Origin: Linanthus parryae
Lineage: Eukaryota > Streptophyta > Magnoliopsida > Ericales > Polemoniaceae
NCBI GenBank assembly: GCA_023055425.1
Contig: JALGPY010000003.1
Span: 77,413,491-77,477,490, forward strand
Direction: 5' to 3'
DNA length: 64,000 bases
The translations under genes were made by a program, and so were the position numbers. This document shows positions 32,744 to 56,679 of the stretch, in pieces. The stretch's first letter is position 1, and every line of letters starts with the position of its first letter. The notes below the pieces were generated by a model. The model searched no databases, was not told the origin of the DNA, and saw only the letters and a list, made by a program, of their open reading frames with translations.

Positions 32744-33514
32744 AGTGTCTAGCAACACATCTATGTCACCCAACTAACATAAATAATCAGTGATCTGACA
32801 AACCTTGTGACCAATGTTACTGTATTGTATTATCCCTCTGTCTCTATAACCGGATTGGACACGAGACATACAAGTCACACTCGTATATCCAATCCATAGT
32901 TTCTCAATCCTGGGAAATGTCTTATCCATGCAGATAACATTCATATCCCATATTGATTTATCTGATTTTGGCCAGACATTCTATAAGCACTACCCCTCGA
33001 GTGGCCGTGGATATTTTCTCCCGTTATGTGGGAGGGAAAAATCATTTGTACATCACTACCATCTCTAAGATTTCTTCCTATTATGTCTGATAACCGCCTT
33101 TATTGCCAGCCAGTCACGACGCAACGTTTGTCGATATCAATCCATAATACTCCACAACTAGAGTATCTAGTGACTTCAAGTCTAAGGACCACAATATCAT
33201 TACCACTACAAGAAGCACTTGTGACTTTTACATAACTTGTATGTAGCCTTTTCGTGGTGGGTCATTCCATTATTTCATTACCCCTAATGCATACCCATGT
33301 GTTAGACTTGATATCCACATATCAATCTACCCACATACTAGTCTATAATTGATCGTCCTATTAATCAATATAAACGACTAGGGATATTTAAGATAATCAA
33401 CAATTGTAAATTAAGGACTTCATTATATTAAATATCTCCATAAATAATAAAATAATTATTCTAGCAACAATAATGTTCATACTAAACAAGATTGCCTCTA
33501 GGGCATCTATAACA
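32744..33514 (-). mobile_element. Copia LTR fragment, minus strand, truncated by element A
   Basis: The minus strand begins TGTTATAGATGCCCTAGAGG and continues like the first half of the LTRs of elements C and E (a TGATTAATAGGACGATCA block, CTCGTGTCCAATCCGG and more). It is cut on the left at 32743. It is an older relative of the C/E family. Confidence 0.75.
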
Positions 33515-33609
33515 TGGTCACAGAGGTTTAGTAGAGCACTAACTATTCATATTTCTTGGCTAGAATTGATGTGTTGCCACACACCGCTCAATTTTGTAAA
33601 TCTTACTGC
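33515..33609 (+). mobile_element. Copia LTR fragment, plus strand, left part (split by element D)
   Basis: It corresponds to the middle of the C/E-type LTR (TTCTTGGCTAGAATTGATGTG, compare 39495). It ends with ACTGC, the element D target duplication, and continues at 56680. Confidence 0.7.
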
Positions 33610-34227
33610 TGTGCACACGAGATTCCGGCGGGGAGACCTCCGTGTACACCGTATGTAGTGGATCAAGGATCGCACAGGAAGAGTGGGGTTGTGTGTAGGG
33701 AGAGAGTAAGGCAGTAGCAATGTCTGAGAGAGAGACAGAGGTTTGGCAGAGCTTCCGCGTATGGCAAGTGTGTTCTCCTTTGTATGGAAAGGGTAACGTC
33801 CTATATATAGCAGAGAACGTGACCGTTGTAGTGTGGTTAATGCGCCCATTAATGGCGGCTTAATTAGCTTAACCATAACGGCACGTTCGTCCGAGTATAT
33901 AGGGACCGTTACAGCACGTTGTGCGCGAATACCGGAACCGTTACGAGGTTGACCGGGTTTGACCGGATTGACCGGGTTCATGGAGCTCGTGCCATAAATC
34001 TCTCAAAAAAGTTACTAAAGGTCGCGTGCCCGCACGCGACAGGACTTACTCTAGCCTCCAAACCACTAAGTCCCTACAAGTCCCGTGCAGTGGTATGCGA
34101 GGGCTCTGTCTCGCAGCCCCCACATGGATCAGCTCGGCTGGTGATCCAGTGTGTGTGGAGCACAATATGGTGTGCTGGATGGTTGCCACGTGGCCAAGAT
34201 CTGTCAGCTCAGAAAGCACTATCTACA
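33610..34227 (-). repeat. Element D 3' LTR (618 bp)
   Basis: It carries a TATA box on the minus strand (TATATATA, 33802-33809) and a hairpin-like GTCGCGTGC-CC-GCACGCGAC near 34021. It is identical to the 5' copy except at two positions and in this hairpin loop. Confidence 0.95.
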
Positions 34228-34240
34228 TTAGCCCCCTTTC
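34228..34240 (-). promoter_or_regulatory. Element D polypurine tract
   Basis: The minus strand reads GAAAGGGGGCTAA right before the 3' LTR start (TGTAGATAG). It primes second-strand DNA synthesis. Confidence 0.85.
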
Positions 34241-34402
34241 TGCGCGTGAAGACTCATAGCTGTATAGACTTGCATGCGCGGAAACCAACATACGCGTTAC
34301 CGCCACGCACCAATTCAAATACGGGTAAGTTCAGCCCCCGTGCGTGTCATTATGACCTAAAACCCCTAGAGTCGTGCCGTCTGGCCTTTAGGGTTTTAGG
34401 CG

Positions 34403-34410
34403 TGACGTCA
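34403..34410 (+). promoter_or_regulatory. Candidate bZIP site (TGACGTCA) upstream of the antisense PMD gene
   Basis: This is a perfect C-box palindrome outside the LTR. It lies about 85 bp before a TATA-like GGATAAATAC (34488-34497) and 0.5 kb before the PMD start codon. The arrangement fits an independent promoter reading away from the 3' LTR. It is inferred from motifs only. Confidence 0.4.
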
Positions 34411-34487
34411 GCTTGTCCTGTGATTGCGCGATTCGACGGTGACGGTTGCGATTCGACTACCGAAAGGACGCAACCCTTCATTGTTTT

Positions 34488-34497
34488 GGATAAATAC
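34488..34497 (+). promoter_or_regulatory. Candidate TATA box of the antisense PMD gene
   Basis: GGATAAATAC lies about 420 nt upstream of the start codon at 34918. CTTCCGCAG directly before the ATG could be an acceptor of a 5' UTR intron, with a possible donor near 34650 (AAACAAG/GTTGG). Confidence 0.35.
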
Positions 34498-37400
34498 TTT
34501 GTATCCCCCATTATTGCAAAGCATCACTTCTTTCTCTTAAAGTGAATGGTACCCGGAGATCTTCGAGAGCAGATTCAGATAATCAATCACCAGTTCAGAA
34601 CTGCAAATCGTGTTCTTCAATTGTGCATATCCAAGCAGGCTTCAAGAAAACAAGGTTGGCCTCGTTTAATTTTGATTTAAGATACCAGCGTTTGCCTTGA
34701 ACTGCGTTGAATCTGTAAACCCATGGAATTTGTGAAGAGGCTTTGATCTTTGAACCCACTTTTGTTTTAATCCTTCAACAATATGAGATCTTGCAACTCC
34801 CTGATTTCTGAAATTGATACCAGAAACTGTTCGTCTTCCTTTGCATAGATCTTGAATTTCAAAATTCAAACTGAAGTGTGGTATTTCTCCCCCCTTTTTT
34901 CTTGCTCTTCCGCAGGAATGGCCAAGACAAAAGGAACCAGACCTGTCAAGGAAGATGAAGAGATACCCGACCTTCCGCAGGCCTTGTGGCGAAAAGCCCC
35001 CTATTTAGGCGGCAAAGATTTCTACCATGCGAGGGTTAAGGCGAAGAGGATGCCTGATCCTGTCCCGGTTGAGCGATTGCTGACACTGACTCGCCCAGTT
35101 AACTCAGCCTTGCTCGAGTTGATTGGTTCCGAGGATGTGGTTCGATTGGGAATCGAGAACGGGCACTTCCCCTATACTGCGATTTCTACCCAGGCGTTCG
35201 TCCAGAAATTGGACTATATGGATGAGTGGATTGACCACGTGTTGGACCATCACGCCGCGACTCTTGATGAAGCCGGCGTATACTTCGCCGTTCGTGCTAT
35301 GAAGGGTGCTGCCGTGAAGCTGGATCAGTCCATGCTTCTAGACCTTCTGTCCCGCTACTCGCCTGCGACTCACACGTTCCATTTTGCTGAGTTCGAGGCT
35401 GCCCCCACACTCGAGGACGTGCAAATGCTGTACGAGCTTTCCCCCATGGGTGAAGTTGACCCTTTGAGTCCTTTGAGGACATCTGCGGAGATTGCTTTAT
35501 ACACGCAGATGGAGGAATGCCTAGCAGAGGTGAAGAAAATCTCCACCCGGTGGACCACTACAAAGGTCCTTCCGAATTGGCAGTTGGTTGATACGTCTGC
35601 GAAGAACACCTGGAACAAATGGTTGCAGTACTTCTTCCGAGACTATGCGAACAGCAGCATCACTAAGAAGCTTCTGAGTGAGAACCCAGAGGCCGAGAAT
35701 TATGTAGAGGGTAAAGGCTATCATTTGACCCTTTGTGCTTTTATCTGTGCTTGGCTGTCGAGGTACCTGATTGATGGTCACCCCCATGACGGGGTCTTCT
35801 ACCATGTTTTGCCACTTGCTGTGAGGCTCGCCCTTGGCCAGAGAGTCGCACTCGGACCCTTGGTCTTGGGTACGGTGTACTATAGGCTTGATCAACTGGT
35901 CCTGGCCATGAAAGAGTCGCGCGGCCGTCTCGATGTACTGACTTTTGTCAATATTTCCTTTTTGACAATGTGGGTTTTCGAGCGATGGCCATCCTATGCT
36001 CCAACTGCTCTCAAACTTGACAAGTGGTGTCCCCCAGGCAAGACCGAAGAGCGTAACAGCGGAAGGCTGCGAGGTGGTTTGGAGCGAGCAACACCAAGTG
36101 CGTGTGGAGTTTGATATGTGACAAGCGGAAAGAGTTTACCACCAGGCCCTATGCCACGCGTGTCGAGAACGTGCGATGGTTTCCCAAGCTGTACCCTTCC
36201 AAGGGTGTTGTCTTCTCAGAAGAGCTTCTCTTCGAAGAGGGACCGCATTTCCATGAGCGCTACCGCGAGTTCTTTTGCTGGTGTCTGCGAGGTTCCCTTC
36301 CTGCCCTCGCAGAGCATATTCGTGAGCTCGCGCCAAGGTATGAAAAGCTTACCGTGGACGTTGACCCCACTCGAGTTTCTCCTCAGTTCGGTTTTGATGC
36401 GGTGGCCCCATCAATCTGGCCCCAGTCTGTTATCAGAGGGTGCTATAAGCGCTTGCTAACAAAGGAGTGCAAGACGATCTTCATGAACAATCTTCCCTTT
36501 GAACAGCCTGCGGGAACCCGCGAGGGTGGTTGTTCCCAAAACTGGCTCGCATACTAGATTGCCCAGCAAACGAGGATTGAGACGCAGTCGGCCGCGCAGT
36601 CAAGCAGAGCTCCCTTGATCAAAAGAAACTCTTTTCCGTTTCGCCCCAATTGCAGTCTGAGCGAGTCTGAGTATGGTTGCTACTCACTGTTGGATCGTGA
36701 GAACCATTTGTGTCCTGATGTCATTCTGAAGGAGAAGGTCGCCGCAGTTAAGAAGGGCGACACGCATGTCGTCAGATACAGCAAGGCATTCGCTGAGGTA
36801 AGCAATTTCTTCGTGTGCGTCAAGCTTCTTGATTTTCTTATGCTGACACCTTAATTCCGTGCTGTTTGCTGTAGTGTCATGTGCGGAGATTCGCATCTGG
36901 TGATCGCTCCAAGTCATTGGTTAACACCATTGTTGCCACCAGAAGACAAAAGCAGTCGTTTCGGTTAGCATGGAGGATGGACCCTGAGGTCGAAACCAAG
37001 ATTCGCGCAGTCATGAATGCTTTTGCTGACTCGCTGATAGACAATGCTCCCGTTCCGTCTCCTCCTGGAGATGATCCCTCCCCTCCAGCGACTGCGGCGC
37101 CGAGAGTGAAGAGACCTAGGCAAAAGGGAATTACAATTTCTTCCCCCAGAAGTGCTCAAGCTTCTCCTCCGGTGAAGTCCCTTTCTGTCAAGGACAAAGG
37201 CAAAGGTCGCATGCCCAGCAAAGTGCGGAAAGAGCTCGCAGTTGAGTCTTTCGTTCCATTCAACCAAGAGGAAGAGGAAGAGAGGCAGGAGCCCCGAGAA
37301 AGTGATGAAGAAGAAGAAGCAACAGTTGTGGTGCATGAGGAAGAATCAGGAGGTACCTCCGTCGCATTTCCTTTCCCATTATCGTAACTTCTTTGCACTT

Positions 37401-38771
37401 CTTTTCTTAAACCAATCATATCTTCGCAGATGATGATGATGATGAGACCATTGGTGGCCTTTTGGCCAAGAGACAAAAGAGAGATACCCATTCTGGCATT
37501 CCAGACGATCCCATAAGCGAGGACATTCTTGCTGAGTCCAGGAAGACAGCCGCGGAGGCTGCTGAAAGAAGGAGACAGCGGGAAGAGGAGGAGCTCGAGC
37601 GTGTGAGACAGCGGAGCCTCGAAGAGCAACATGTTGACGACTTAGTGCGTCCAGCTAGCAAGGAAGATGAGCTTCCCGAAGAAATGGATCCCCAGGCGGA
37701 GGAGGAAGATGCGGTTCCGGAAGAGGATGCAGCAGCGCTGGAGCAAGTCCAGGCGGACTTTGAGGAAATCGCAGGCGGCGATAAAGGTGAGATCTTCAAT
37801 CTCGCAGTAACTTATAGAGATGTTATTGTGGGTGCGTTAAAGCATGGTGTGTCAAAGACTGACATCCGCCGTTGGCTAGTAGACAAGTGCGGAGAACCTT
37901 CAGGTAAATATTTAAGTGATATGCATGTGCTAGACCTGAGCGGCTTGAAACAGGATCATGACTGGTTTCTTCGCATCCCAGGTCACGCTCCTTTTAAAGA
38001 CTTGCTTAGTGACGAGACACTAATAGGATATGGTTCCACGTCCTTAGTGTATGATGAAGATACCTCAATCCCACCTTCGCGTGGAGGTGCTTACTCTTAG
38101 CTTTAGTAAAGATAGCGAAATAACTTATAGCACAAGTTACCTCATATCATCGCATTTAATATTGCAGGTCATGCTGAGGAACCTGTGCTGGAGCAGAGAA
38201 GTCAGCCTTCTGCGTCCTATGTTCCGATTCCAAGCTCCCATACCGAGAAGCCTGTCGCAGCTGCTGAACACGCAAGTGAGCCTCTCGAGGACATCATCGA
38301 ACTTTCCGATGATGCTGAAGCAGATGCTGTGCTAATGGATGAAGATGTCCATACTGGTGCTGAGGAAGTAAGGACAAGTGCTGCTAATGCTTTCGCATCT
38401 GAGAGCGTCCTTCGCCAAGCGACTTCGGCTGTCCCTTCGCCTCCGGCGATGACTGAGCCAGTGGCACCTATTCCTGCGTGGAGCTTTTGGGGCTCGCAGG
38501 TTGGGAATGCAGTCGCAGCTGGTGCGGCCTACATTCTTCCTCCTGACTACGAGAGGTTGGTGCTCGCAGCTGATAGGAGAGCTACGGAGCGAGGACAGTC
38601 TTCAACCACCCCGGCAGCGCGCATTCCTTCTCTTCATGAGATTCTGGAAGGAACTGGTAAGCAGAGCTTTACTGTTCGCATTTCGCACTATTTACTTGCG
38701 AGTTTGACATCGTAACTTAGTTTTGACATCTCTTCAGGTTTGAAGCAAACCGATGTAGACTGGGTGGTTCG

Positions 38772-40338
38772 TGTTGGAATTGTGCCCTAGAGGCAATCAA
38801 TTAATTGTGACATTTATGGATTTACGATTCATTATGTTATCGATATGGTGATATGTTAACATGAATGAAGTCCTTAGAATATAAGTGTTATATTCTTAAA
38901 TATCCCTAGTCAATTATAATGATTAATGGGACAATCATCTATAGACTAGTATGGGGTTGGATTGATATGGAGATATCATGATCCAACACATGGGTATGTA
39001 TTAGGAGTAATGGCATACTGGATTGGCCCATCTCCGAGAAGGCTACATACACGTTATGTTAAGTCACAAGCGCTTCTCGCGGTGCAATGGTATTGTCATC
39101 CTTAGACTTGAAGTCACTAGATATTCTAGTTGTGGATTATTATGATCTTGGTAGCGTTAAACGCTACACCGTAACTGGGTAGTTATAAAGGCGTGTACTG
39201 GATACAATAAGAAGCAAGCTTAGAGATCGTAGTGGACGTAGATAGAATTTGTCCCTCCCACATAACGGGAGCAAATATCCTAGGCCACTCGAGGGATAGT
39301 GCTTATAAAATGTCTGGCCAGACTCAAATAAATCAATATGGGATATTGATGTTATTTGCACGAATAAGGCTATTCCCAGGATCGAGAAACTATGGATTGG
39401 ATATACGAGTGTGACTTGTATGTCTCGTGTCCAATCCGGATATTGAGACAAAGGGATGAGACAATTACTTGCACAAGGTTTGTCATGATGACTATTCTAT
39501 TTGTTGGCTAGAATGGATGTCTTGCTAGAGGCCGCTCCATATTAGTAAGTTGTTACTACCAACTAAATAGAACCTATGGGGTCACACGCCATATAAGGGT
39601 GAACTAGACATGGGAAATAATTAATTAATATGATTAATTAATTAGAAGGATCAAATCGCAACAACTTGCTAACTTAGTAGGACTAATATGCAAGTTGGAC
39701 TAATCCATGTATAGACATGATTAGGATTTGCCAAGGTGGCCTAATTCATGTAGAGACATGATTAGGATTAATTTGCAAAATAGAACTAATCCATGTATTG
39801 ACATGATAAGGACTATTTTTGCAAAAGGGACTAATCCGAACTTGAGGAGGATTATGAGGGGTTCTTTATGTAGTAGGACTAGGAGTTGTTGGACTATATA
39901 AAGAACACTCCTAGCTTATTTTTCTCTCTACACACCACACATCTATTTGATAGAAGTAAGGAGAGAACAAAGCAAGGAGAGAGCAAGTCCCAAAAGAGGG
40001 CCGAACCCCCTTGGGATTGCCGCCCCTCTACCCGTCGGCCTCACATGGTGGTGGCACCCCACTTTGGTACTCCATTGTTGGCGATTCCTTCTTCCTCCTC
40101 CATTCTTCCTAGCTAGCACATGGATTTGGAGGATCTAGATCTCACCTCTAGGCGTGGATCAACCGTAGAGACGTGACACTATTCGCGTTTGAAGTCATCA
40201 AGGAGAACCCAAAGGTGTGTTTATGATTTCTAACCCTTACCATCGTTATGTCTCTTGACTTGTGATCCTTGGAGGGTTTTGCATGGTTTTATGTTTGTTT
40301 ATGCTTCCGTTGTGCACTCCATGAATCAAAACCCTACA
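38772..40338 (+). repeat. Element C 5' LTR (1,567 bp)
   Basis: It begins TGTTGGAATTGTGCCCTAG and ends AAACCCTACA. The TATA box TATATAAA is at 39895-39902, within the 5' half to middle of the LTR, followed by an A/G-rich leader. Confidence 0.95.
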
Positions 40339-40339
40339 G

Positions 40340-40354
40340 TGGTATCAGAGCCAC
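40340..40354 (+). promoter_or_regulatory. Element C primer-binding site
   Basis: TGGTATCAGAGCCAC lies one base after the LTR. It is complementary to the 3' end of initiator tRNA-Met, the standard primer of plant copia elements. Confidence 0.9.
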
Positions 40355-43300
40355 AAGTCGTAGAGCATAAACGTGGTTTATGTGTTACGTTTTAGTTGTT
40401 TTACACCTTAAATTGATTGTTTATCGCGCAAAACAAGACAAATCAAGCATGGGATGGAATTTGTCAATAATCTATCATAACAAGATCTAATTTTTGCATT
40501 GGATGCATGAATTGGTGAGTTTGAGAAATTTTAGGATCTTAGATCTAGGGTTTGGGCATCCTTGGGGAAGAAGGAGTTCTTTCCATACAAGGAAACAACC
40601 AAACTTGGGCACCAAGCAAGGGAGTTGTTTTTGGAAACAACTCCCATAGAAGGGTTCGGCCCCCCTAGGGACCGCCCCCTTGCTTGCCGCCCAAGCTTGG
40701 GAGCCCTAAGGGGCCGGGCGGCCCTAACCCGTGGCCTAGGCTTGTGGGTTTTGGTCCGGGCCGGCCCTAGGGCCTAGTGGTTCACCTTATTGGGCCCGGG
40801 CAATTTGATTGTTGGGCCCATGGACCGTTTTAACCCTAGAAATCCTAAAATCAATTAAAATTGACCAAGCGCGTTAAAATTGGATTTTAACTGTTTATGT
40901 GCAAATCGCATGGTGATTGGATATGGCCTTAGGATGTGGTTTGATGTGGATGTTTAATTATGTGGTTTGGTTTTACGGCCTGCGAGCTGATCAATTAATT
41001 GTAATAATTAATTAGGGTTTTATGGCCTGCGTGCCATTTTTTCTCAACTTGTGAGATTTATTTTATTTAGTATAGATATTAGCTAGTGCTAGATAAAGTA
41101 GATTGTTAGCCAAGATTGGAGAAAAAGAAGCCCAAAGCCAAGGAAGCCACAAAAGATGGAGCATGGAGCATGGAGCAATCCACAAGACTATGAAGGATGG
41201 ACCAAAAGATCAAGACTCATGGAGATGTGTTTGCTTTAGGGTTCATAGATAATTCCATTGGCTTGGAATTATCTTAGTCTAGAAAAGGCCATATCCACAT
41301 CACGTTTAATTTCTTTTTTGTGGTTGTTTAATTATTGTCTTATTATTTGTGTGGTTGGTGTATGGATGATGCATGCAATTAGGATAATAAGATAATTAGA
41401 CAACCCGGATCTATTATTTGGAGTTGTGCCCAAACTCAAATAGATAGATTAGTTGATATTGATCAACAAAACAATTAAAAGAATTGAATTCAAAATCCCT
41501 CAAAATTCAAATATTGTGTTCTTGCCTTCTCGTTATTTAAACACTCATGATCATCATTATTTATCAAGCTCGTGCGTGCCAAAGCAGGGCGACTTGGTTC
41601 ATAATGATGGAATGCGATGGCACGTAACAATGTGCAATTGTTTAGATAAGAGGTTGAACACAACTGGGCTATTAATATGATTAAGAAACCTAGAGGCAAT
41701 CAATTGGGATTATCCATATGGATGGATAAATAAGGAGTTATTTGCCCAATTGAACCAAGAGTTGCATAAGGGATGCAATTGGAATTGTTCCTACCTAAAG
41801 TAGTCAAATTATGGGTGACTTGCCAAAGCAAGCTCATAAGGAGATGAAACATGGATCTTGGCCCACTAGAAAATATATGAATATTTTCCGCATTAATATC
41901 TTGAGGGTTATTAATCCGTAGTAAAATAGTGGGAGCTATATTTGACAATTTAAATCCTTGTTGAATATAGTTAAACGTCACAAACTTTGCATAATCCTAT
42001 TATGTTGAAAACCCATGGCATTAAACAAATAAAAACGCGACTCTATCTATTTCCTAGACTGGTATAAAATTGAGAAATGTTCTCAAATAAAAGAGAAATT
42101 GTTGTACATCGTAGAACATAAAGATCTCTTCCTACCAACTACCAAATCACACTAAAACCTAATGGAAGGGACATCAAAGAATGGTTCTTTGGATGTGACT
42201 TGCCTCATGTTAGCTGCCATGAACTCTGAGCTTTGGAAGCAAGATGAGTAACATGGAGAAGTATGATATGATCATACATTGAAAGAAGCTCTTTCAAACT
42301 AGGGAGCTAGGCAAGAAAGGTTTGAAGTGTTGCTCTACTTTGGGTTATGCAAATATACTAATTCAATATGATTGAAACATTAGTAAATATGCATTATCTA
42401 TGAGATAGATAAAGAATAAAAGGTTATTCACCCAAGTGGACCAAGAATTGCATTGGATGCAATTATAGTTTTGTTTTAAAATTGATTTACTCAATATGAT
42501 TGAAAAATCACTAAAACAAAACACTAATAATGGGCATGGGCAAAGTTGTTAATGGATAACAACATGGGTAAGGGCAAAATAGTTTGCGCCAACCCCATGG
42601 GTATAAAGCAAGTCTATTGCTAAAACCAAGTTGCCTCAAAGTCCCATAGGTGGTGTAGAGGAAGAGAGACTACCCAAAGTACATGGAAGTAAGTAATAAA
42701 GGAATTATGAATTCCGATTTGGGTAATTTTGTTATATAAATCAATGTGTCTATCTCATCATCATAAGTATATGATACTAGATGAGGATCTCACATTTATA
42801 GAAATGTGGAGGATCTCAAGAGACGAAGACAATTGGATAAGGAAGAAATAATCCTACACGTGGGGCTATGAAGCAAAGGGTTGCTGAATAAGCCGTGGGG
42901 AATTATTTCTACCTTTAAGAAATTGTTCATGAATTAGACAAAAGCGATAATGTCCCTACTATGAGTAGGATCATTATCATAGTTTCTTGTTTGGACAAGA
43001 AAGCTCCTTATCATAATAAAAAGGACAAATGTTGTTCCATTTATTATGGTGTGCATTATTGTAATGCAATTTTGTCTAAGTGGATTCTATATCCATGATC
43101 ATGATAATTTCATCTATAACATTAATACCTAGAGGTTTGCATATAATGATATGAACTTCACTTATCTTTAGCATTATTGTTTAGGCCTCCTAAATAAGAA
43201 ATACATATCTAGAAATCCATGTGGATGGATATCTGGAACTCATTTGATTATTGAATCATATGAGACATGTAAGACTTATTAGGAAAAGATATGATCTTTT

Positions 43301-45410
43301 GGGAATCATACATATTGATGTATGAAGCCCGCTAAGCACAAATACTAAAGATGGTTTTCAGTACTTCATCATATTTACTGATGGGATCAGAGAAATATGG
43401 ATTTGTGTATCTTATGAAGAAACAAATCAGAATCCTTTGAATTGTTCAAAGAATTCAGGAATGAAGTAGAAAACCAGCTTGGAAAAAGTATTTAGGCTCT
43501 ACGATTGGATCATAGAGGAAAGTACTTGAGCCAAGAGTTTGACAACAATCTATGGGAGTGTTGGATATGATCCAACACTCGCTCCACCTAGCACGCCACA
43601 AAGGTTTGCCGTGTCTAAGAGGAGATTTCGAACCTTGTAGGACACGGTTCGGACCAAGATAAGTCAAACAGAACTTCCAGTTTACTTTTGGGGCTATGTT
43701 CTAATTACAACAAATTTCGCCCTTAACCTTGTTCCATCAAAAACGGATTATGAATAACGCCATATGAGATATGGACTAGGAAAGTGTCCTAGTATGTCAT
43801 TCATAAAGATTTGGGGTTATGAAGTTTATGTAAAAGAGTTTACAAATAAACTTGGACCCAAGTCGGATAAATGTTTTGTGGGATATCCTGAAAAGGATAT
43901 TATTTCTACAACCCAATCGAGAACAAACTGTTTGTTGCTCGAACTACAGTGTTTCTAGGTAGAGATTGTCTCTAAGAGAAACAGTGGGAGGACAGTAGAA
44001 CTTGAAAAGTTCAAGAACCACAATAGAACATTGATCCGTTTGATGGAACATGAGCAGGATCACAAGGTGTTGTGGAGCAACCTACTCAGATAACACAAGA
44101 ACCTCGTAGGTCAGGTAGGATATGTTAAGGGACTAGAGAAATAAGGATTTCTCATAACCCGTGATATATTGCTCATAAAGATGAGCCTACAACCTATGAG
44201 ATGGCCACGTGTGGCCATACTCTCGGAAATGGCTTGGAGCAATGAGATACGATATGGAATCCATGTATGCCAACAAAGTATAGACTTTGATGGAACCACC
44301 TGAAGGGTAGGACCCATAGGGTGCAAGTGGGTTATGAGGAAACCAACATGGATGGTAATATGATTACCTTTAATGGAAAATTGGTAGGAAAGGGATTTCA
44401 TGTGAGCTCATAGTATAGACTATGACGAAATCTTTCCCCAATTGTGATGCTTAAATCCATTCGCATCTTGCTTGTAGCAATCTATTTATAGATTGGATCA
44501 AGCTTCTAGGAGTTGGACTCTTCAAATAGATGATGTAATCAAAGGAGTTTGATTCCATCAAAATTGAAGATGAGACTTGTGTTTACAAGAAGGTTAGTGG
44601 GAGCATAGTTATTTTTCTGGTCTTGTATGTGGAGACATACTTAATCATTGGGAATGTTGCCCCTACTTGGCAGTCTTACGTAGATTGACTAGGGAGTTGA
44701 CTTTCTAATGGTAGACTTAAGCGAAGCAACTTGTGAAGATCTATTGAGGTAGATCAAGATGGTTGTATAGCTTATGTCATAGTACATAAGTTGACAAAGG
44801 TGTTGAAATGGTTCAACGTAAAAGAATATCGATTCTTACCCATGTCACATGGAATTAGTCTTTGGAAGGCTAATTGTCTTTCCAATTAGATTGGGAATGG
44901 ACCGTATGAATTAGATTCACGAGATACGTCATGAGATGTACTAGGCCAGACGTGTCATAAAGCATGACACAAAGATACCAGTCATATCCGGGTGAGAGTC
45001 ACTGGATAAAATATCAATATTATCATTTAGTACTTGAGAAGCACTAAGGATGAATTATTGATAAATAGATAATATGAAGAGTTTGCTGTAAGGGGTTACA
45101 GTGATGCGAACTTCAAATCTGACAAAGAAGATTTCAGATTATAAGTCAAGTTTTGAGTTTTGCCTTAGTGGGAGCGACTGTGAGCTGGAAAAGTTCCGGG
45201 CAAGATTCAGTCACTGATTTTAACATAGAGGACTGAGTAAATTAATACATAAGATGCATTTACTAAGAATATTCAATCTCAATCAAATTGTTGATAGAGG
45301 AGATGTGAATATTTGCAACGTATCAACAGATGTCTCGCCCCTACGCAGCGGAAGCGTGGAGGGCCGCGCTAGATCAATAGGCATATGATGCAGGAGATTG
45401 ACTCTAGTGC
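40355..45410 (+). pseudogene. Element C interior: long leader and wrecked gag-pol
   Basis: The first 1.6 kb (40355 to about 41990) is a non-coding leader closely matching that of element E. Gag relics follow at about 42000-42300. Integrase relics lie at about 43270-43960 (best piece: GPKSDKCFVGYPEKD at 43764-43958), RT relics at about 44140-44860 and RNase H relics at about 45100-45200. The order is normal for copia, but there is no usable frame. Compared with E, whole blocks are missing or substituted. Confidence 0.75.
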
Positions 45411-45421
45411 AAGTGGGAGAC
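45411..45421 (+). promoter_or_regulatory. Element C polypurine tract
   Basis: AAGTGGGAGAC lies immediately before the 3' LTR, the usual copia wording. Confidence 0.88.
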
Positions 45422-46988
45422 TGTTGGAATTGTGCCCTAGAGGCAATCAATTAATTGTGACATTTATGGATTTACGATTCATTATGTTATCGATATGGTG
45501 ATATGTAAACATGAATGAAGTCCTTAGAATATAAGTGTTATATTCTTAAATATCCCTAGTCAATTATAATGATTAATGGGACAATCATCTATAGACTAGT
45601 ATGGGGTTGGATTGATATGGAGATATCATGATCCAACACATGGGTATGTATTAGGAGTAATGGCATACTGGATTGACCCATCTCCGAGAAGGCTACATAC
45701 ACGTTATGTTAAGTCACAAGCGCTTCTCGCGGTGCAATGGTATTGTCATCCTTAGACTTGAAGTCACTAGATATTCTAGTTGTGGATTATTGTGATCTTG
45801 GTAGCGTTAAACGCTACACCGTAACTGGGTAGTTATAAAGGCGTGTACTGGATACAATAAGAAGCAAGCTTAGAGATCGTAGTGGACGTAGATAGAATTT
45901 GTCCCTCCCACATAACGGGAGCAAATATCCTAGGCCACTCGAGGGATAGTGCTTATAAAATGTCTGGCCAGACTCAAATAAATCAATATGGGATATTGAT
46001 GTTATTTGCACGAATAAGGCTATTCCCAGGATCGAGAAACTATGGATTGGATATACGAGTGTGACTTGTATGTCTCGTGTCCAATCCGGATATTGAGACA
46101 AAGGGATGAGACAATTACTTGCACAAGGTTTGTCATGATGACTATTCTATTTGTTGGCTAGAATGGATGTCTTGCTAGAGGCCGCTCCATATTAGTAAGT
46201 TGTTACTACCAACTAAATAGAACCTATGGGGTCACACGCCATATAAGGGTGAACTAGACATGGGAAATAATTAATTAATATGATTAATTAATTAGAAGGA
46301 TCAAATCGCAACAACTTGCTAACTTAGTAGGACTAATATGCAAGTTGGACTAATCCATGTATAGATATGATTAGGATTTGCCAAGGTGGCCTAATTCATG
46401 TAGAGACATGATTAGGATTAATTTGCAAAATAGAACTAATCCATGTATTGACATGATAAGGACTATTTTTGCAAAAAGGGACTAATCCGAACTTGAGGAG
46501 GATTATGAGGGGTTCTTTATGTAGTAGGACAAGGAGTTGTTGGACTATATAAAGAACACTCCTAGCTTATTTTTCTCTCTACAAACCACACATCTATTTG
46601 ATAGAAGTAAGGAGAGAACAAAGCAAGGAGAGAGCAAGTCCCAAAAGAGGGCCGAACCCCCTTGGGATTGCCGCCCCTCACCCGTCGGCCTCACATGGTG
46701 GTGGCGCCCCACTTTGGTACTCCATTGTTGGCGATTCCTTCTTCCTCCTCCATTCTTCCTAGCTAGCACATGGATTTGGAGGATCTAGATCTCACCTCTA
46801 GGCGTGGATCAACCGTAGAGACGTGACACTATTCGCGTTTGAAGTCATCAAGGAGAACCCAAAGGTGTGTTTATGATTTCTAACCCTTACCATCGTTATG
46901 TCTCTTGACTTGTGATCCTTGGAGGGTTTTGCATGGTTTTATGTTTGTTTATGCTTCCGTTGTGCAATCCATGAATCAAAACCCTACA
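45422..46988 (+). repeat. Element C 3' LTR (1,567 bp)
   Basis: It is the pair of 38772-40338, with the TATA box at 46546-46553. Differences seen include t/a near 45507, g/a at about 45676 and c/t at about 46366, plus single-base indels at about 46476 and 46679. Confidence 0.95.
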
Positions 46989-47435
46989 GTTCGAATGCGC
47001 CTTACCTACCCCCAATCGTTCGTGAGATCTCTGGAGATAGGGCCCTTTGACAGGAGGCTGTTTCTTACTGAAGCCATTTGGATTTTGGAGCAGCTGTCTG
47101 CGGCTACGCCTGCGACCATTTCTGTCCAGAGTGCTGAATTGCTATGTGGCATGTGCCAAAATCTCCTGACCAAAGTCCAGGGCAGACTGGGTTTCAAATT
47201 TCTTATGAACAGAGTCACGCTGATTCGCGCAGCCGTAACTTTGAAACTCGGCCACCAGAATCTCGCAGCTGAGAAGCAGAAGGTGGAGCAGCAAAAGCAA
47301 AAGGTTGATGAAGCTCTGAAGCTCTATCATGAGATGAATGCCAGGTGCGAGCAGCTGAAGCAAGAAGTGAAACAGGTAGAGAAGCTGAGCCATCAGTTCG
47401 AGCCCCAAGACTCCTTGATCAAGAATTTGCTTTGA

Positions 47436-47849
47436 CTTTTCAAATTTTGAAAACTAGCAAGAAAATAGCTGAAACATTAATGTAATGTTTGAAACATTAA
47501 TGTAATGTTGCTAGGGTTTCTCCCCCTCTTTTTTTTAACAACACGAATGAATTTGCCCGTTTTGCCCTTTCCGGATTTGATAGGATATCTCTGTGCATAT
47601 CCATATGACATCAGCAATTGATACTCTGCTTGATTTTCGCGCTAATTTCTCGGCAGATAAGCACGCTTTCGTTGGGAAATCCATCCGAATCATGACCATC
47701 CGTCATTTATTAGGATACGCAATTGAATCGTCGTAGCCTTTAGTAGGGTACTTGATTGTTACCGCTTTTCAAGGCGTAAGTGATTGAACTTACCCTCTTT
47801 TCGAATTCTGCTGACTCATCCTTGGCAACTGAAGAGTCTCCACAGGGTC
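47436..47849 (+). other. Spacer between the PMD gene and a possible second cassette
   Basis: It includes a directly repeated GAAACATTAATGTAATGTT (47471-47507), a likely 3' UTR piece. AT-rich sequence without ORFs follows. Nothing else was recognised. Confidence 0.6.
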
Positions 47850-47857
47850 TATATAAA
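47850..47857 (+). promoter_or_regulatory. Strong TATA box (TATATAAA) in the element D 3' region
   Basis: TATATAAA in a good context (GGGTC before, CCCTG after), 37 bp before an ATG at 47894. It reads antisense to element D. Confidence 0.55.
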
Positions 47858-47893
47858 CCCTGTCTTTGCTATTTGGGTTCTTCATCCCAAAAA

Positions 47894-48241
47894 ATGTGCT
47901 TTGCCGTGAGTCCTTACGACTGCTGGCTTCAACGCTTGTTTTTCGTTGATTCATGGCAACTTCAAGTTTTGAATCCTGAGTTTGCGCTTTGTGCTATAGA
48001 AATAGTTTCCAAGATCCACTTTATGAGGAATATTGCTCTTTATAACCATCATAAAGAAGATGGAGATGATATCTCATGTGTATTCGAAGAATTTTCTTCG
48101 TGTATTATGTTTGCAGGTCATGTTTCCGGCCGCCTCATGGTGAGGTGCAGCGCCAAAGTGACCGTGCTACCGTCTCGTAATGAACGGCGGAATTCTCCTC
48201 CAGCATCCATGGAGGAGGATTTCTTGCCTCTTCGTTCTTGA
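47894..48241 (+). CDS. Possible small antisense ORF behind a TATA box (115 aa), unrecognised
   Basis: The frame is open from MCFAVSPYDCWLQRLFFVDS to a stop at 48239-48241. No domain was recognised. The composition is cysteine- and tryptophan-bearing, with a slightly acidic middle (HHKEDGDDISC). A possible acceptor (GTTTGCAG/GTCATG) near 48117 suggests the second half may be a separate exon. The TATA box right upstream makes it a candidate gene, but an ATG only about 37 bp from the TATA leaves a very short leader. It may be chance. Confidence 0.3.
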   Translation: MCFAVSPYDCWLQRLFFVDSWQLQVLNPEFALCAIEIVSKIHFMRNIALYNHHKEDGDDISCVFEEFSSCIMFAGHVSGRLMVRCSAKVTVLPSRNERRNSPPASMEEDFLPLRS

Positions 48242-49029
48242 ACTCAGGGGGCTTGTCAATGCCCTTGTCTATCATGACAAGGAATCCATCACCAGAGGAA
48301 TGACTGCTTCGCCTGTTTTGCAGGACAGCATATGTCGGAACAGGAGGTTCCTCCGGTGCCTATCTTGATCAGACAGAGGCTTTTGTCACCCCTTGGGGTC
48401 TTGGACGTATTATTTCGCAGATCTTGCTGCTAGGGACGTAGCGAATGACAAGCTGATCTCTTCGCAGCAGCATCCCTTTTGCTATAGATCTTTGGCCGTA
48501 GATCTGCGTATTGCATAGCCGGTGTTAGGACCGTTAGGTTCACCCTTTTTCAGTCGGGATTCCCGCGATGTGTTACTTCATGCTTTTCGAATGTATTGTA
48601 AGCCATGTTGGCTGCGTAGTTAGATTCGAGCTTTTTCGCTTGTAAGCTGCTATCTAGACAGATAAATTGTAAGTCTTTTCGACTCATAATGATAAATAGA
48701 TTTTGTATAATCTGCTGTCTCTTTACAACAAAATACAATTTCGCATGCGTTTCGGCATATTCCGCCTTGCATAATGCTATGTAATGCTTCCGCATTTGCT
48801 ATCTGCCATATGCATTCGCAGATGTTTCGCTAGATCATTCGAGATCATATTTTCGCAGCTGTGCCATCTTGGCAGATGGGCTTGTGATTAGCCTTTGATG
48901 CACGTGCTATCATATCAGATAGACCTTTGTAGATCACTTAAGATCATTTTCACAATATTGTTATCGTATTCGTAGAATGCCTCCATCACCGCAGATAGGT
49001 TTGGAAGATAAATCAAGCTTACTTTGCAC
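48242..49029. other. Element D 3' region, diverged repeat traces
   Basis: There is no gene. Short motifs TTCGCAG and GATAG recur (48410-48860). From about 48840 there are degenerate forerunners of the 54-bp unit (for example AGATCACTTAAGATCATTTTC at about 48931). Confidence 0.55.
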
Positions 49030-49520
49030 GTAAGTTGCCATCGTAGCAGATAGGCTTTTCTAGATCAATTAAGATCAGTTTCCGCACGAGTTGCTATCGT
49101 AACAGATAGGCTTTACTAGATCAATTAAGATCTCATTTATATGTAGGTTGCTATCGTAACAGATAGGCTTAAATGATCAATTAAGATCGCATCCGCATAG
49201 GCCGCTATCGTAACAGATAGGCTTAAATGATCAATTAAGATCGCATTTGCATAGGCTGCTATCATGAGAGATAGGCTTAGATGATCAATTAAGATCGCAT
49301 TTGCATAGGCTGCTATCGTGACAGATAGGCTTAGATGATCAGTTAAGGTCGCATTTGCATAGGCTGCTATCGTAACAGATAGGCTTAGATGATCAGTTAA
49401 GATCGCATTTGCATAGGCTGCTATCATAAGAGATAGGCTTAGATGATCAATTAAGATCGCATTTGCATAGACTGCTATCGTGACAGATAGGCTTAGATGA
49501 TCAATTAAGATCGCATTCGC
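49030..49520. repeat. 54-bp tandem repeat array, about nine copies
   Basis: The marker ATAGGC recurs at 49050, 49106, 49163, 49217, 49271, 49325, 49379, 49433 and 49487. The period is 54 bp in the right-hand part and 56-57 bp at the left edge. Each unit holds two dyads: CTATCGTAACAGATAG (arms CTATC/GATAG) and GATCAATTAAGATC. The minus-strand open frame across it is an 18-residue repeat and is not a real protein. Tat-lineage elements often carry such arrays between integrase and 3' LTR. Confidence 0.93.
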
Positions 49521-49752
49521 GGATTGTTATTGTAGCGGATGACTCACTGTTAATAGTTATAACAAACTGAAATAAAGTAAAATTGACATGCAGAAATACG
49601 AAGTTTCTCATTTGGGAGAATTTTCTTATTATAATGCTCTCATATGGGAGAGATGGGATTACAATCCTCTCATATGGGAGAGGAGATTGTGCAAATCGTA
49701 ATCATACAAGACATTAAGCGACGTTGTAATAAAACGCACGAAATGAGAGAAG

Positions 49753-50077: not shown

Positions 50078-52080
50078 TCATAGTGCATGGAAGGCCAGCC
50101 TTGCCGAATTGACTCTAACCTCCGCAGGTACTACGGCCTCGGCTCCATAGCATAGTAGGAACGGTGAGGCCCCCGTGGGTGTCCTTGGAGAAGTTCGGTA
50201 AGCCCATAGAGCTATGCTTAGAGAGTCAGCCCACTTCTTGTGGTCATCCGCGACCATCTTGCTCAAAATCCTCAACAGCGTTTTGTTGGTCGCTTCAGCT
50301 TGCCCGTTCCCCTTCGGGTAATAAGGGGTAGAACATATCTGCCTGATATTGTACTCCGCTAACTTCGCAGCTACCTGGCGATTAACGAAGGGAGTACCGT
50401 TATCTGAAAGAATGGTATTTGGAATTCCGAACCTGCATACGATGTTTTCCTGAATGAAGTTGACCACCGCTAGCGCGTTCGCCGTTTTCAGTGGTATTGC
50501 CTCCACCCACTTGGTGAATAGCTCGGTTGCAGTGAGAATAAAATGATTCCCGTGCGACGTTGGCCGGATGAGACCGATGAAATCCAGAGCCCATGTGTGA
50601 AATGGCCATGGCGTCCCTAATGCATGTAGATCCACGGCGGGAGCGTGCACTAGGTTCCCTTTGAATTGGCACTCCTGGCAGCGTCGCACTTTGGTGCGGC
50701 AATCGACCTCCATCGTGGGCCAGAAATACCCAATTGAGAGGAGCTGTCTGCATAATTTCGCACCTCCTTGATTCTCTACCTGATGGGAAAGGTCCATGAC
50801 TTCTTGTGCTTCTCTGCCGTCTAGACACCGCAGCAAGTTGCCTTCATGACCTCTTCGCCAAAGCAGGTTTTCTTGTACTACGTATCGAGATGCCTTCCTT
50901 TTCAATTTCTCGGCCTCTTTTCTTGATTCGGGCAGGGTGCCCCGAGTGAGATAATCGAAGAGCGGCTTCCTCCAATCTGTGTCATCGTCTGTTAGAGGGA
51001 TGAGTAGAGAATCTTTGATTAGTGCGCAACTCTCGCACTTCCCTTGTATCAGGGCCGCGGCTGTTGACATATCCAGCCAATGAATGCCATATCTCAGAGC
51101 CTTCCGGTAGATTGACACCTCGCTTTCTCCGCAAGCATGTTGGTGAATCTTTTCTAACAACCGTTGTCCCTCTCGTTCGGAGACGCATCGCATGAGTATT
51201 CCGCCAGGACCCTTGTAGTAAAGGGTGTTGTCATGTATGCAGTACCCTTTTGTGAGTGCCCAGCTTTCACTGCTTGTGCCTTCCGCCATAGCTTGCCGGA
51301 TTGCTTTCCTCCAGTCTGCGTCATCCATGTGTTCGTCGTCGCACGCATCCTCTGTCAATGCCGACGATGTTCGCACTTCAATAGAGATCTTTGCGGGACA
51401 TTTGTCAGTGCTGACCTTAGATCCCAAGGTTGCTAAAGCGTCCGCATGCCTGTTGTCTGCTCGGGGCTTGTGCTCGTACTTCACATCGCAGAATTGCTGC
51501 ATCAGCTTTTGTACTAGGGTGCGGTAAGACAGGAGGTTGATCTCCTTCAAACCATACTCGCCCGAGGCTTGCTTAACAATCAGCTTGGAATCTCCCATGA
51601 CCGTTAAGTTGCTTACTTCCAAAGCTTTCGCCGCACGGAGCCCCGCGATGAGAGCCTCATATTCCGCTTCGTTGTTTGTGACTGCGAAGTTGAGCTTTGC
51701 GGACATCTGTATGACTTCCCCGTCTGGCTTTGTCAAGACTATCCCAATGCCTCCGCCTTTCCTGGTTGACGAACCGTCAAAGTGGAGGGTCCAATAGGGC
51801 ACGTCGATTGCGTAGATTTCAGGGCCTTCGAGCTCTTCTTCGATCACGGGTTCGTGGCTGTTGTCGGGGAACTGTGCCAACAGATCTGCTACCGCCTGCG
51901 ACTTGATCGCTCGCGGTCGCACGCATGTGATATCGTATTGAGAGATGGTCATGTACCATTTCGCCAATCTCCCGCCCGGAGTAGTGTGAGTTAGCAAATA
52001 TCGTATAGGGTCGCTCTTGGTGACCACTACTACTTGATTCAGCAGGCTGCACGATGCGAGAGATGTAGTATATAGGCCTC
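50078..52080 (-). CDS. Element D RNase H, archaeal-type RNase H and integrase (pol part 2)
   Basis: The frame is open on the minus strand. A tail of the first RNase H comes first (TKSDPIRYLLTHTTPGGRLA). The archaeal-type RNase H follows (WTLHFDGSSTRKGGG, NNEAEYEALIAGL, VMGDSKLIVKQA, RHADALATL, with the D-E-D-D residues present), which marks the Tat lineage. The integrase comes last: a drifted zinc finger (SHQVENQGG, CQECQ; one histidine lost), the core WALDFIGLI, LSDNGTPF and YPKGNGQAEATNKT (D, D, E intact), and the block ALWAYRTSPRTPTGASPF. It is out of frame with the upstream RT. Confidence 0.88.
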
Positions 52081-53396
52081 TCTTGGCCTTCATACTCCTG
52101 AGCCAAGAGCGCTCCTATAGATCTCCTTGTTGATGTCAGATATAGCAGAAGCGGTGATCCCAGTTGAGGTGCGATCATTATTTTTGAGGACGTCAGTAAA
52201 TCCTTCAGCTTTTCGAATGCGGCTTCGTGCTCCGGAGCCCAGTTGTACGCGGCGTCCTTCTTGAGGAGAGCACTAAAACAGCAGGTGATTTCTGCAATCG
52301 CTGGGATGAATCTTCGCAGATATGATAGCTTTCCCAAGAATGTTTTCAAGGTACTCTGGTTATGGGGTGGCGTCATGCTGGTGATAGCTGATACTTTCGC
52401 AGGGTCAGGATCGATCCCTTGGCGATGAACCACGCATCCCAAGAATTTCCCTGATGTTACCCCGAATGCGCACTTCATGGGATTCATTTTCAGTTGAAAA
52501 CATCTGCATCTATTGAACACCTTTCGTAGATCTGCGAGGTGGTCTGCTTCGTGCTTGGATTTGACAACCAGGTCATCCACATAGAATTCCACTTCTTTAT
52601 GCATCATGTCGTGAAACAGAGCCATCATGGCCCGCTGATAGGTTGCACCCGCATTTTTGAGACCGAATGGCATCACTGTGTAATTGAACACCCCCACCGG
52701 AGTGATGAATGCAGTTTTCCGCGCGTCTTCGGGATCCATCTTGATTTGATTGTACCCGCTGAAGTCGTCCATGAAACTGAACATGCGATGGCCCGCTGTT
52801 GAATCGATAAGCAAATCGATGTTGGGCAGTGGGAAATCGTCCTTGGGGCATAAGCGATTGAGATCTCGGAAGTCCACGAAGATGCGGAGCTGTCCGTTCT
52901 TTTTCACTACTGGCACGATATTGGCCAGCCATGTGGGATGATGATTCGGCTCTATGAATTTGGCATCCAGGAGTTTGACAATCTCCTGCTTGATTTTCAC
53001 GTTAAGCTCCGGCCTGAAGCTCCTTGTACTCTGCTTTACTGGTTTAGACCCCGGGATGATGTCTAAACGGTGCATGGTGATGCTTGTATCCAGACCTGGC
53101 ATCTCATCATATTCCCATGCGAACACATCCTTGTATTCAGTTAGGAGTTGTAGCAGCCCTTGCTCCTCTTCGCTTGTGAGGTCCGCACTTAGAAAGACTG
53201 GCCTTTTCTTTTCCTCGTTTGGGCTGAGGAACACTTCCTTTAGCTCTTGCTTTTGTGGTCTGGGCCTGTCTTCCATGCATTCAGGTGCTTCTTTGAGTTT
53301 CTTGTCTGGAGCGCCCTGTGTTGGCTCTTCCGTCAGCGCAATTTGCTCGATTTGATTGATTTGCCCAGGGATATCCCCATGCCCGTGTGAGGACAT
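52080..53396 (-). CDS. Element D reverse transcriptase (pol part 1)
   Basis: ATG at 53396, in the same frame as gag-protease but after an in-frame TGA at 53409-53411. RT motifs: TRSFRPELN, LRIFVDFRDLNRLCPKDDFP, FMDDFSGYNQI, GATYQRAM and catalytic FYVDDLVVKS (about residues 271-280). The RT thumb/connection (FLGKLSYLRRFIP) and the start of the first RNase H (ALLAQEYEGQERPIYYISR) follow. At about 52080 the frame is lost: roughly 25-35 residues expected between IYYISR and the RNase H tail appear to be deleted, with a frameshift. Confidence 0.88.
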
Positions 53397-53408
53397 CCCC
53401 GCGCACCT

Positions 53409-56012
53409 TCATATGCGATAGCATTTCTTCCCATTGGCGTAGAAGCTCTCTATCTCCTTGCCTTCGGGGTCATGCTTTGCGATTCTCTTCAGAGTATACA
53501 CATTCTTTCGATGATATGCGATACGTGGCGCCTCTTCGCGTGTAGGCGGCTTTTCCTTGGCATCTTCCCTTGTCACCATTACTCCCGCAGGTGACTGGTC
53601 CTTGATGTCCTCCCAGAGGGGCAAAGGAGTAGGGTTGAATGGTCCCGGTGTTTGCTCGTCCGCCATCTCGGTGAACCACACCGCCTCGCTGAGATGTGCT
53701 TCGTCCAGGTTGAATGGGTTCGTCGAAGCCGGTATTTCGACTATTCTGTCGTTCCAGATAGCTTTCATAACCTGGTGAGCCGTTGAAGGAACTGCGTCGA
53801 AGCGATGAATCCAGGCTCGACCTATAATCATGTGGTACGTGGTGTTCGCGTCTATGACATAGAACTTTGCTGAGCACTTGATTTTGCCAATCTGAACGCC
53901 CAGGCGGATCTATCCGATCGTCATTCTAGAGTCGCTTCCGAATCCCATCAGCGGAGATGGACGCCTGACGATCTTGTGCTCGGGGATCCCTGCTAGCTTC
54001 AGTGTGTGGAGCGAAACGACGTTGACCGCTGCTCCTCCATCGACGAACGCTCGTTTGAACTCGACGCCATTGATGATGGCGGTCACGTACAGAGGTCTCT
54101 GGTGGCTCGCATCCGTCTTCTTGTCGCTGGCAGAAAAGGTCATAATCTTTTCTGTAGAGCGGGATGCCCTGATGACTTTCCCGTTGGAGACTACGAGGTC
54201 CTCCTCGTAGTCCTCCTCTATTCTCAAGATCGCTTTCGTCATATCTGTCCGGCACTTCTCGGAGAAGTTCATCTCGTCGAAGAATCTGCTGAAGCCGTGC
54301 GACCCTTTCATCCGGTCGGCACGTTCATCCTCCGTGTCCATGCTGTAGTCTTCGTCTTCATGGAACTCGGCAACGATGGGTAGACCATCCTCTTCCAAGT
54401 CAACAATCGAGATCATGGCGACCTCTTTGCCTTTCGGGCCCTGCTCCGCATGAGCAGGAAGTGGGTTGTTGCGCACGTCCTTTCTGTGATCACTGACGAT
54501 TAGCTCGCCGTTCTTCATCTTCTGGTCGAATGTAAACCCGAGCTTTTTACATTCCGCTGTGGGGTGCATGACCTTGCCATGGTACTCGCAACACTTAGGG
54601 TCCCTCACCATCTCCTTGGAGGGTGTCTTCTCGAGCGGTGGCAGGACGCCGTCCTTGCGCCACTGTCTGCAGAGGTCGCTTGCTTCCTCTACTGAGCATG
54701 GCAGAGGCGGTACATCGAAGTTCGCAACCTTCGCTTGCTTCTGGGGCGAAACTGTATTGACCTCAGCTTCGCGTCCCCTCTTGTAACTAAATCTCCCGAT
54801 CTTGTAAGTAGTGCCGCTCGAAGGTCGCTCCGGAGCGCTCTTCTTTTTCTGTCTTTCGACTATAGGCTCGATGTTCTTCGTGCATTCGATTAGCTTTGAA
54901 AACGTAGGTGTTTGCAAATTGATGAGCATACCTTTGTATTCATCTCGCATGCACTGCAGGCATATCTCTACGAGCCGGCTTTCGGGCATTGGATCTTTGC
55001 ACTCCAAGGATTTCGCCCTGAATTTCTTGATGAAAGTGATTCCGTCCTCCTCGCGCTTCTGATACATCCGCGAGAGATGGATCATCGTCACCTTTTCTTC
55101 CATCTGGAAGAACTTGGTATAGAACTTCTGGACCATGTCGTCCCAAGTCTTCACGGATCCGGCTTCCAATGTTCGGTACCATTTGTATGCTACGTTCCCT
55201 AGAGATTTTGGGAACTCTCGCATCAGCAGCTTGGGATCAGCTCCGTACGGACCCATGACATCAATGAAACGCATGACATGCTCATGAGCGTTTCCATTGA
55301 CATCCTCGAACTTATCCCATTTAGGAGCCTTGTACCCCGCCGGGTTGGGCATGAGATAGATCTCTCGTGGAATAGGTGGATCGTTGTCTAACTTCGGGAT
55401 AATGGTATCCGCGAATGACTGATGAGCCAGAATAGTGTCCACGCGCTTCTGCAGAGACGTCATGCATTCTGGAATGCTCCCCTCGGTAGTTGACGGAGGG
55501 GTTTCCGCAGGCGGGGGCGACACATACGCCGTCGGAGGATTGGGAGCATACTGACTACCCGCATTCCCCCAGATCGCCGTTGGGGGAGGCAAAGGGTACT
55601 GCAGAGTTGGGTTAGACGCCAAAGCCGAGGGCTGAGGAGTGTGAGCAGCAAGAGGCAACATCTGAGCCATTGACCCCTGAATCGAAGGCAGCTGCGTAGT
55701 CGCCGGTGGAGTCTGCAGATTGGGGTTGGGAGGTGTGGTTGACATTCTCAATCCTGGAGCGGTAGGGGCTCCTCCTCCTTGAGGGACAGCGGTGGCTGAT
55801 GAAGGGCTTGGCGCAAGGTTTCCCAGAACGGCCAAGATCCGCTCTAGTTGCGCAGACTGAGCCTTGAGAGCTTTCGCCTGACTCTGAACAGTGGCGTCCA
55901 AAGACTCTAGCGTCGGTGTCTCGCCGGGAGTCGTAGGAGTACGGCGGGTCTCGTCTCCCGAGGGAGCTTCGGTGGAGGGCGATCTGTTGCTGACATCATC
56001 CTCCTGAGACAT
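53409..56012 (-). pseudogene. Element D gag-protease, one open frame with a nonsense codon
   Basis: The start codon chosen is ATG 56012 (MSQEDDVSNR); the frame upstream has no ATG. The first 190 residues are proline/threonine-rich. The gag core spans about residues 235-390 (KWDKFEDVNGNAHEHVMRF, MREFPKSLGNVAYKWYRTL, WDDMVQKFYTKFF). Then comes a zinc-knuckle-like CCEYHGKVMHPTAECKKL and an aspartic protease with FVDGGAAVNVV (D-G-G-A in place of D-S/T-G-A). An in-frame TAG at 53910-53912 cuts the protease, and the frame continues to TGA at 53409. Apart from that the region is well preserved. A programmed stop inside the protease fold is unlikely. Confidence 0.85.
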
Positions 56013-56034
56013 GGTTGCTTTTGTTGGTAAGTTC

Positions 56035-56049
56035 ACGTCGGGTTCACCA
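56035..56049 (-). promoter_or_regulatory. Element D primer-binding site
   Basis: The minus strand reads TGGTGAACCCGACGT, three bases after the 5' LTR. Its complement ends in CCA, as a tRNA 3' end must. I do not assign the tRNA. Confidence 0.85.
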
Positions 56050-56052
56050 AAA

Positions 56053-56679
56053 TGTGCACAAGAGATTCCGGCGGGGAGACCTCCGTGTACACCGTATGTA
56101 GTGGATCAAGGATCGCACAGGAAGAGTGGGGTTGTGTGTAGGGAGAGAGTAAGGCAGTAGCAATGTCTGAGAGAGAGACAGAGGTTTGGCAGAGCTTCCG
56201 CGTATGGCAAGTGTGTTCTCCTTTGTATGGAAAGGGTAACGTCCTATATATAGCAGAGAACGTGACCGTTGTAGTGTGGTTAATGCGCCCATTAATGGCG
56301 GCTTAATTAGCTTAACCATAACGGCACGTTCGTCCGAGTATATAGGGACCGTTACAGCACGTTGTGCGCGAATACCGGAACCGTTACGAGGTTGACCGGG
56401 TTTGACCGGATTGACCGGGTTCATGGAGCTCGTGCCATAAATCTCTCAAAACAGTTACTAAAGGTCGCGTGCGGGCTTGGCTCGCACGCGACAGGACTTA
56501 CTCTAGCCTCCAAACCACTAAGTCCCTACAAGTCCCGTGCAGTGGTATGCGAGGGCTCTGTCTCGCAGCCCCCACATGGATCAGCTCGGCTGGTGATCCA
56601 GTGTGTGTGGAGCACAATATGGTGTGCTGGATGGTTGCCACGTGGCCAAGATCTGTCAGCTCAGAAAGCACTATCTACA
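56053..56679 (-). repeat. Element D 5' LTR (627 bp)
   Basis: It is nine bases longer than the 3' LTR because the hairpin near 56466 has an 11-nt loop (GTCGCGTGC-GGGCTTGGCTC-GCACGCGAC). The TATA box on the minus strand is at 56245-56252, about 430 nt into the LTR. It drives the genomic RNA. Confidence 0.95.

Follow-up and report, generated by a model that had tools for sequence, protein, structure and literature searches.

The plant mobile domain (PMD) is shared by the host proteins MAIN and MAIL1, and host PMD proteins act in silencing. In the Grande element of maize, an accessory gene known as 'gene 23', reportedly described by Gomez-Orte et al. in 2013, is said to lie in the long 3′ region, in reverse orientation to gag-pol and with its own promoter. 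More generally, extra ORFs are frequent in plant Tat elements. The Tat clade is defined by a second, archaeal-type RNase H in pol, which is located between the RNase H (RH) and the integrase in the angiosperm Ogre and Retand subclades (Neumann et al. 2019, PMC6317226). According to the same survey, a PMD is present in the extra ORF of 57% of Ogre elements, tandem arrays often occur in the expanded non-coding regions of the largest elements, and the function of extra ORFs is termed rather speculative. As its ORF calling is described, single ORFs of at least 250 codons were extracted with getorf, and introns were therefore invisible to it (PMC6317226).

Here we analysed a 64-kb stretch of Linanthus parryae DNA (the window). 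We read its central part, with a probability of about 0.85, as a decayed Tat-lineage element with an antisense, intron-bearing PMD gene as part of the element. This retrotransposon, called the outer element since another one is nested in it, has the following features:

33605..33609, no strand: left copy of the target duplication ACTGC, from direct sequence reading (right copy 56680-56684)
33610..34227, minus strand: 3′ LTR of the outer Tat-type element, 618 bp (blastn LTR pair; TG...CA edges)
49036..49517, no strand: 54-bp unit repeated 8.8 times in tandem, within the 3′ non-coding region of the outer element (repeat search)
50078..52114, minus strand: pol segment with the second, archaeal-type RNase H (RVT_3) followed by the integrase (H2C2, rve)
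51819..53408, minus strand: reverse transcriptase and first RNase H (RVT_1, 104 bits; RT_RNaseH_2), in a frame different from that of the next part of pol
53910..56105, minus strand: gag (Retrotrans_gag, 32.7 bits) and the start of the protease (by eye)
56053..56679, minus strand: 5′ LTR of the outer element, 627 bp (blastn LTR pair), followed by the duplication ACTGC at 56680-56684

The two outer LTRs (33610-34227 and 56053-56679, compared by blastn at both ends) differ by 3 mismatches and 9 gap positions in 627 alignment columns. On the plus strand each LTR runs from TG to CA, and ACTGC is found at either side, so that the element spans 33610-56679 with a target site duplication (TSD) of 5 bp. 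As judged by Pfam matches, gag-pol is on the minus strand, in the order gag, reverse transcriptase, first RNase H, second RNase H and integrase. RVT_3 (PF13456, 76 bits) is located between RT_RNaseH_2 and the integrase domains, as in the Tat clade, and the order of domains along the minus strand matches the Ogre/Retand layout, in which the archaeal-type RNase H separates RH from integrase. The outer element is a Tat-lineage (Ogre/Retand-type) Ty3/gypsy retrotransposon, defective and inserted recently. The presence of a PMD points tentatively to Ogre rather than Retand (PMC6317226). A preliminary description of this DNA had proposed a near-identical LTR pair with a single ACTGC duplication, enclosing a Tat-type element with a gene opposite gag-pol; the LTR comparison, the two RNase H domains of the minus-strand gag-pol and the PMD on the plus strand bear this out.

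In the present copy, pol of the outer element is broken by changes of frame and by stops. Two stops occur in one frame of the gag-reverse transcriptase stretch, at 53910-53912 and 53409-53411, and one of these may mark where one ORF normally ends and the next begins. A frame change is located between 52114 and 51819. Near 50078 the end of the integrase seems to continue in another frame, as seen by eye, with no domain match there.

On the plus strand, opposite gag-pol and inside the one LTR pair and one TSD, is located a PMD gene. Its features are listed below together with the fraction of 5000 random sequences (first-order Markov model of each piece) that were open in the given frame; these fractions are optimistic because the pieces had been picked for being open. 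The phases of introns 1-4 were worked out by hand from the coordinates.

34403..34496, plus strand: possible promoter words, TGACGTCA at 34403 and ATAAATA at 34490 (word search of 34230-34920)
34655..34915, plus strand: possible 5′-UTR intron, 261 nt (best-scoring donor in 34400-34850 for the acceptor)
34918..36797, plus strand: exon 1, with the PMD in 34918-36111, a frame change at about 36057-36114 and an in-frame TAG at 36555-36557
36798..36874, plus strand: intron 1, 77 nt, GT-AG, phase 0
36875..37352, plus strand: exon 2, open frame of 159 codons (0.0046)
37353..37429, plus strand: intron 2, 77 nt, GT-AG, phase 1
37430..38086, plus strand: exon 3, acidic, net charge -28 over 218 aa (0 of 5000)
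38087..38167, plus strand: intron 3, 81 nt, GT-AG, phase 1, with in-frame stops inside
38168..38656, plus strand: exon 4, acidic, net charge -17 over 162 aa (0.0014)
38657..38737, plus strand: intron 4, 81 nt, GT-AG, phase 1, with an in-frame stop inside
38738..38771, plus strand: left part of exon 5, including the TSD GTTCG at 38767-38771 (0.614; too short for a test of its own)
38772..46988, plus strand: nested copia-like LTR element, 8,217 bp, inside exon 5 (LTR pair and TSD GTTCG)
46989..47435, plus strand: right part of exon 5, starting with the second GTTCG (46989-46993) and with the stop codon at its end; open frame of 146 codons (0.0006)

The frame starting from the ATG at 34918 has 398 codons and carries the PMD (PF10536, in 34918-36111, plus strand), with 81.7 bits against a cut-off of 34.9, a value of 7.6e-23 and a match to positions 5-194 of the 347 of the profile (Pfam); the domain had been named correctly in the preliminary description. 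A second and weaker match of the same piece, to DUF7745, was below the cut-off (18.7 vs 26), and no Pfam match was obtained even at E 10 for 36060-36554, where the remainder of the PMD is expected. A sequence search of the PDB yielded no match at 0.1. The PMD piece and the reverse transcriptase piece had 1 and 1 pattern-matched stretches in virus contigs, with no relative by tblastn, and the PMD piece had 11 pattern-matched stretches in bacterial and archaeal contigs, again with no relative by tblastn, as is to be expected of such collections.

Upstream of the PMD frame, a fifth intron in the 5′ UTR (34655-34915) is possible, its predicted acceptor being a pyrimidine-rich CAG two bases before the ATG; the evidence for it is weaker than for introns 1-4. 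The words at 34403-34496 are a putative promoter of the antisense gene, and TATAAA and TATATA are absent from 34230-34920 (word search). Towards the other end of the protein, acidic and coiled-coil tails had been suggested. The acidic part is upheld by charge as a middle region (exons 3 and 4), and the terminal coiled coil is likely from the look of the sequence and from weak Pfam matches: the right part of exon 5 gave 12 of these at E 1, all below their cut-offs, with BORCS6 as the best (0.00047, 20.7 bits vs a cut-off of 35). By eye, a GLKQ motif followed by DW occurs both in exon 3 (about 37945) and at the start of exon 5 (38738), which may reflect a small internal duplication. Shortly after the stop codon, probably in the 3′ UTR, there is a perfect 20-bp tandem duplication (47470-47509), and further on a plus-strand frame (47783-48238) with no Pfam match at 0.01.

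The gene is damaged in the present copy. The PMD frame ends at 36114 while a different frame is open from 36057 on, indicating a change within about 36057-36114, and this second frame of exon 1 carries the TAG at 36555-36557. The exon pieces total 3,980 nt (counted by hand), no multiple of 3, and no continuous reading frame was found across the exons. Because of the frame change and nonsense codon in exon 1 and the insertion in exon 5, the present copy, as sequenced, cannot make a full-length protein. The protein of about 1,320 aa announced earlier was a sum across these breaks, and there is no such frame; likewise, the interval 34918-47435, given as that of the gene, silently included the 8.2-kb nested insert, and one intact gene over this interval is ruled out by the same three lesions. 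The frame change or the nonsense codon could stem from an assembly error, which would hardly account for the nested element with its own duplication.

The LTRs of the nested element (38772-40338 and 45422-46988, 1567 bp each) show 8 mismatches over 1566 aligned positions and 2 gap columns, and GTTCG is present on either side of the element (38767-38771 and 46989-46993). A harmless position inside an intron was considered and ruled out, as the TSD sits in exon 5 and, worked out by hand from the coordinates, the parts of exon 5 to the left and right of the insertion share one coding phase. No plus-strand frame of at least 90 aa was found in the interior; the two frames of at least this length are both on the minus strand, of 98 aa each, and neither has a Pfam match at 0.01. 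The nested element is 90% identical over 40339-41984 and 70% identical over 42722-44112 to a second element at about 58.6-64 kb. Because of this relationship to a copia element and of its short frames, it is likely a non-autonomous copia-type relative. The outer LTRs (3 mismatches) and the nested LTRs (8/1566) are both about 0.5% divergent, a similarity which does not separate their ages, and the order of the two insertions follows from the nesting alone.

Other mobile sequences are present in the window. The second copia element (58598-63998, plus strand) contains gag and the start of pol (61588-63294; Pfam), and its identity to the nested element is 88% over 58598-59520, then 86-90% and then 70%. 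Just outside the outer element, 32748-33505 is a reversed fragment of the LTR of the nested element, 80% alike. At 18443-20004 and 25542-27081, with a spacing of 7.1 kb, are two LTR-like sequences of about 1.56 kb that share 91.7% identity; between them are found a weak gag-like match (32%) at 24944-25114 and a 350-aa minus-strand frame (23434-24486) for which Pfam gave no match at 0.01. Finally, 15225-17606 (plus strand) encodes a gypsy-type reverse transcriptase and integrase, 25-38% identical to the outer pol pieces (tblastn).

Since the introns are known here from sequence signals, one could ask whether they are chance GT-AG pairs and the plus-strand frames spurious. Pairs of this kind are indeed common: among GT-AG pairs of 60-150 nt near each junction, 14, 11, 9 and 4, respectively, keep the frame open. 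Nevertheless, each of the four introns (77, 77, 81 and 81 nt, within the 77-81 nt claimed earlier) ranked first at its junction, with weights from a simple consensus of our own that was set up after the introns had been proposed. Their composition is also distinct, since none of 3551 exon windows of 79 nt was as G+C-poor and simultaneously as T-rich as any of introns 1-4. Such a composition is the usual mark of plant introns. The introns moreover join frames that are rarely open in random sequences. Besides the fractions listed above, which as noted are optimistic, the value was 0 for 34918-36111 and 0.002 for 36060-36554 (5000 trials), while 36558-36797 (80 codons, 0.057) and the left part of exon 5 (10 codons) give no evidence for their frames. 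Allowing any of the three frames raised the values by a factor of about two to four, to 0.0078 for 36060-36554, 0.0132 for exon 2, 0.0038 for exon 4 and 0.0024 for exon 5. Open frames, ranking and composition are not fully independent of each other. Taken together with the strong PMD match itself, these results make a chance origin of the introns highly improbable, and the four introns are well supported as sequence signals.

As a second alternative, this one copy of the element may have captured part of a host PMD gene, or received it by insertion, as a passenger that plays no part in the family. In favour of this reading, the gene carries three lesions, its introns are typical of host genes, and several different sources have been proposed for extra ORFs in general (PMC6317226). 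However, with a PMD reported in 57% of Ogre elements, a PMD gene is expected by descent (PMC6317226), and nothing striking frames the gene. There is no inverted pair of at least 25 nt in 34500-48000, and among the 20 inverted pairs listed for 34228-50100, the only one to bracket the gene is weak (34772-34792 with 49127-49147, 21 nt, 76% complementary); its right arm is inside the 54-bp tandem array and we regard the pair as probably due to chance. We therefore consider a host passenger quite unlikely. The gene as a separately inserted DNA transposon was also considered, and was rejected on the lack of an inverted pair of at least 25 nt in 34500-48000.

We thus favour a PMD gene belonging to the Tat-lineage element, and propose the following scheme. 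The antisense gene, with at least four small spliceosomal introns, would sit in the long 3′ region in reverse orientation and would travel as part of the element. Because the gene is antisense to the genomic RNA, this RNA would carry the introns only as complements without splice sites, and they would be kept through reverse transcription. The preliminary description had argued in this way and the reasoning is sound, all four introns being opposite gag-pol within one LTR pair and one TSD. If intact sister copies exist, the gene in them would be transcribed from a promoter located in the stretch from the 3′ LTR to the ATG, and splicing of this transcript would allow translation of a PMD protein whose middle is acidic and whose end may form a coiled coil. 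That sister copies share the PMD gene is likely because of its frequency in Ogre elements (57%, PMC6317226). Inheritance with the element is inferred from the literature and from the position of the gene, the window holding one copy: no other copies of the antisense gene pieces were found within its 64 kb (tblastn, 1e-3).

What such a protein might do is a more speculative matter. By analogy with the host PMD proteins that act in silencing, the product of intact sister copies might blunt host silencing by mimicking or competing with MAIN and MAIL1. The present copy is broken, and the function of extra ORFs is rather speculative in the literature (PMC6317226), so that we regard this role as doubtful. 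The same low confidence applies to its extension, in which antisense coding would keep a multi-intron gene whose spliceosome-dependent PMD protein, made from integrated DNA only, would be a stable cargo of the family acting on host silencing.

The four-intron antisense gene offers a clear and testable reason for antisense placement, namely that introns outlast reverse transcription. It also suggests that a survey limited to single ORFs may count too few intron-bearing antisense genes or cut them short. A single broken copy is a pointer to a family and not evidence of function.

Compared to known systems, the gene shares its PMD with MAIN and MAIL1, which are host genes and not carried by a retroelement. 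With 'gene 23' of Grande in maize it shares, as far as that gene is reported, the status of an accessory gene in the 3′ region on the strand opposite to gag-pol. The novelty of a PMD cargo had been overstated in the preliminary description, since Ogre (Tat) elements with a PMD in an extra ORF had already been published (PMC6317226); a layout with several introns is perhaps less familiar, given that the ORFs called in that survey were intron-less. The present gene differs from those extra ORFs by its four introns and by the broken state of this copy, and resembles them in combining PF10536 with a Tat element in which the second RNase H is located between RH and integrase (PMC6317226).
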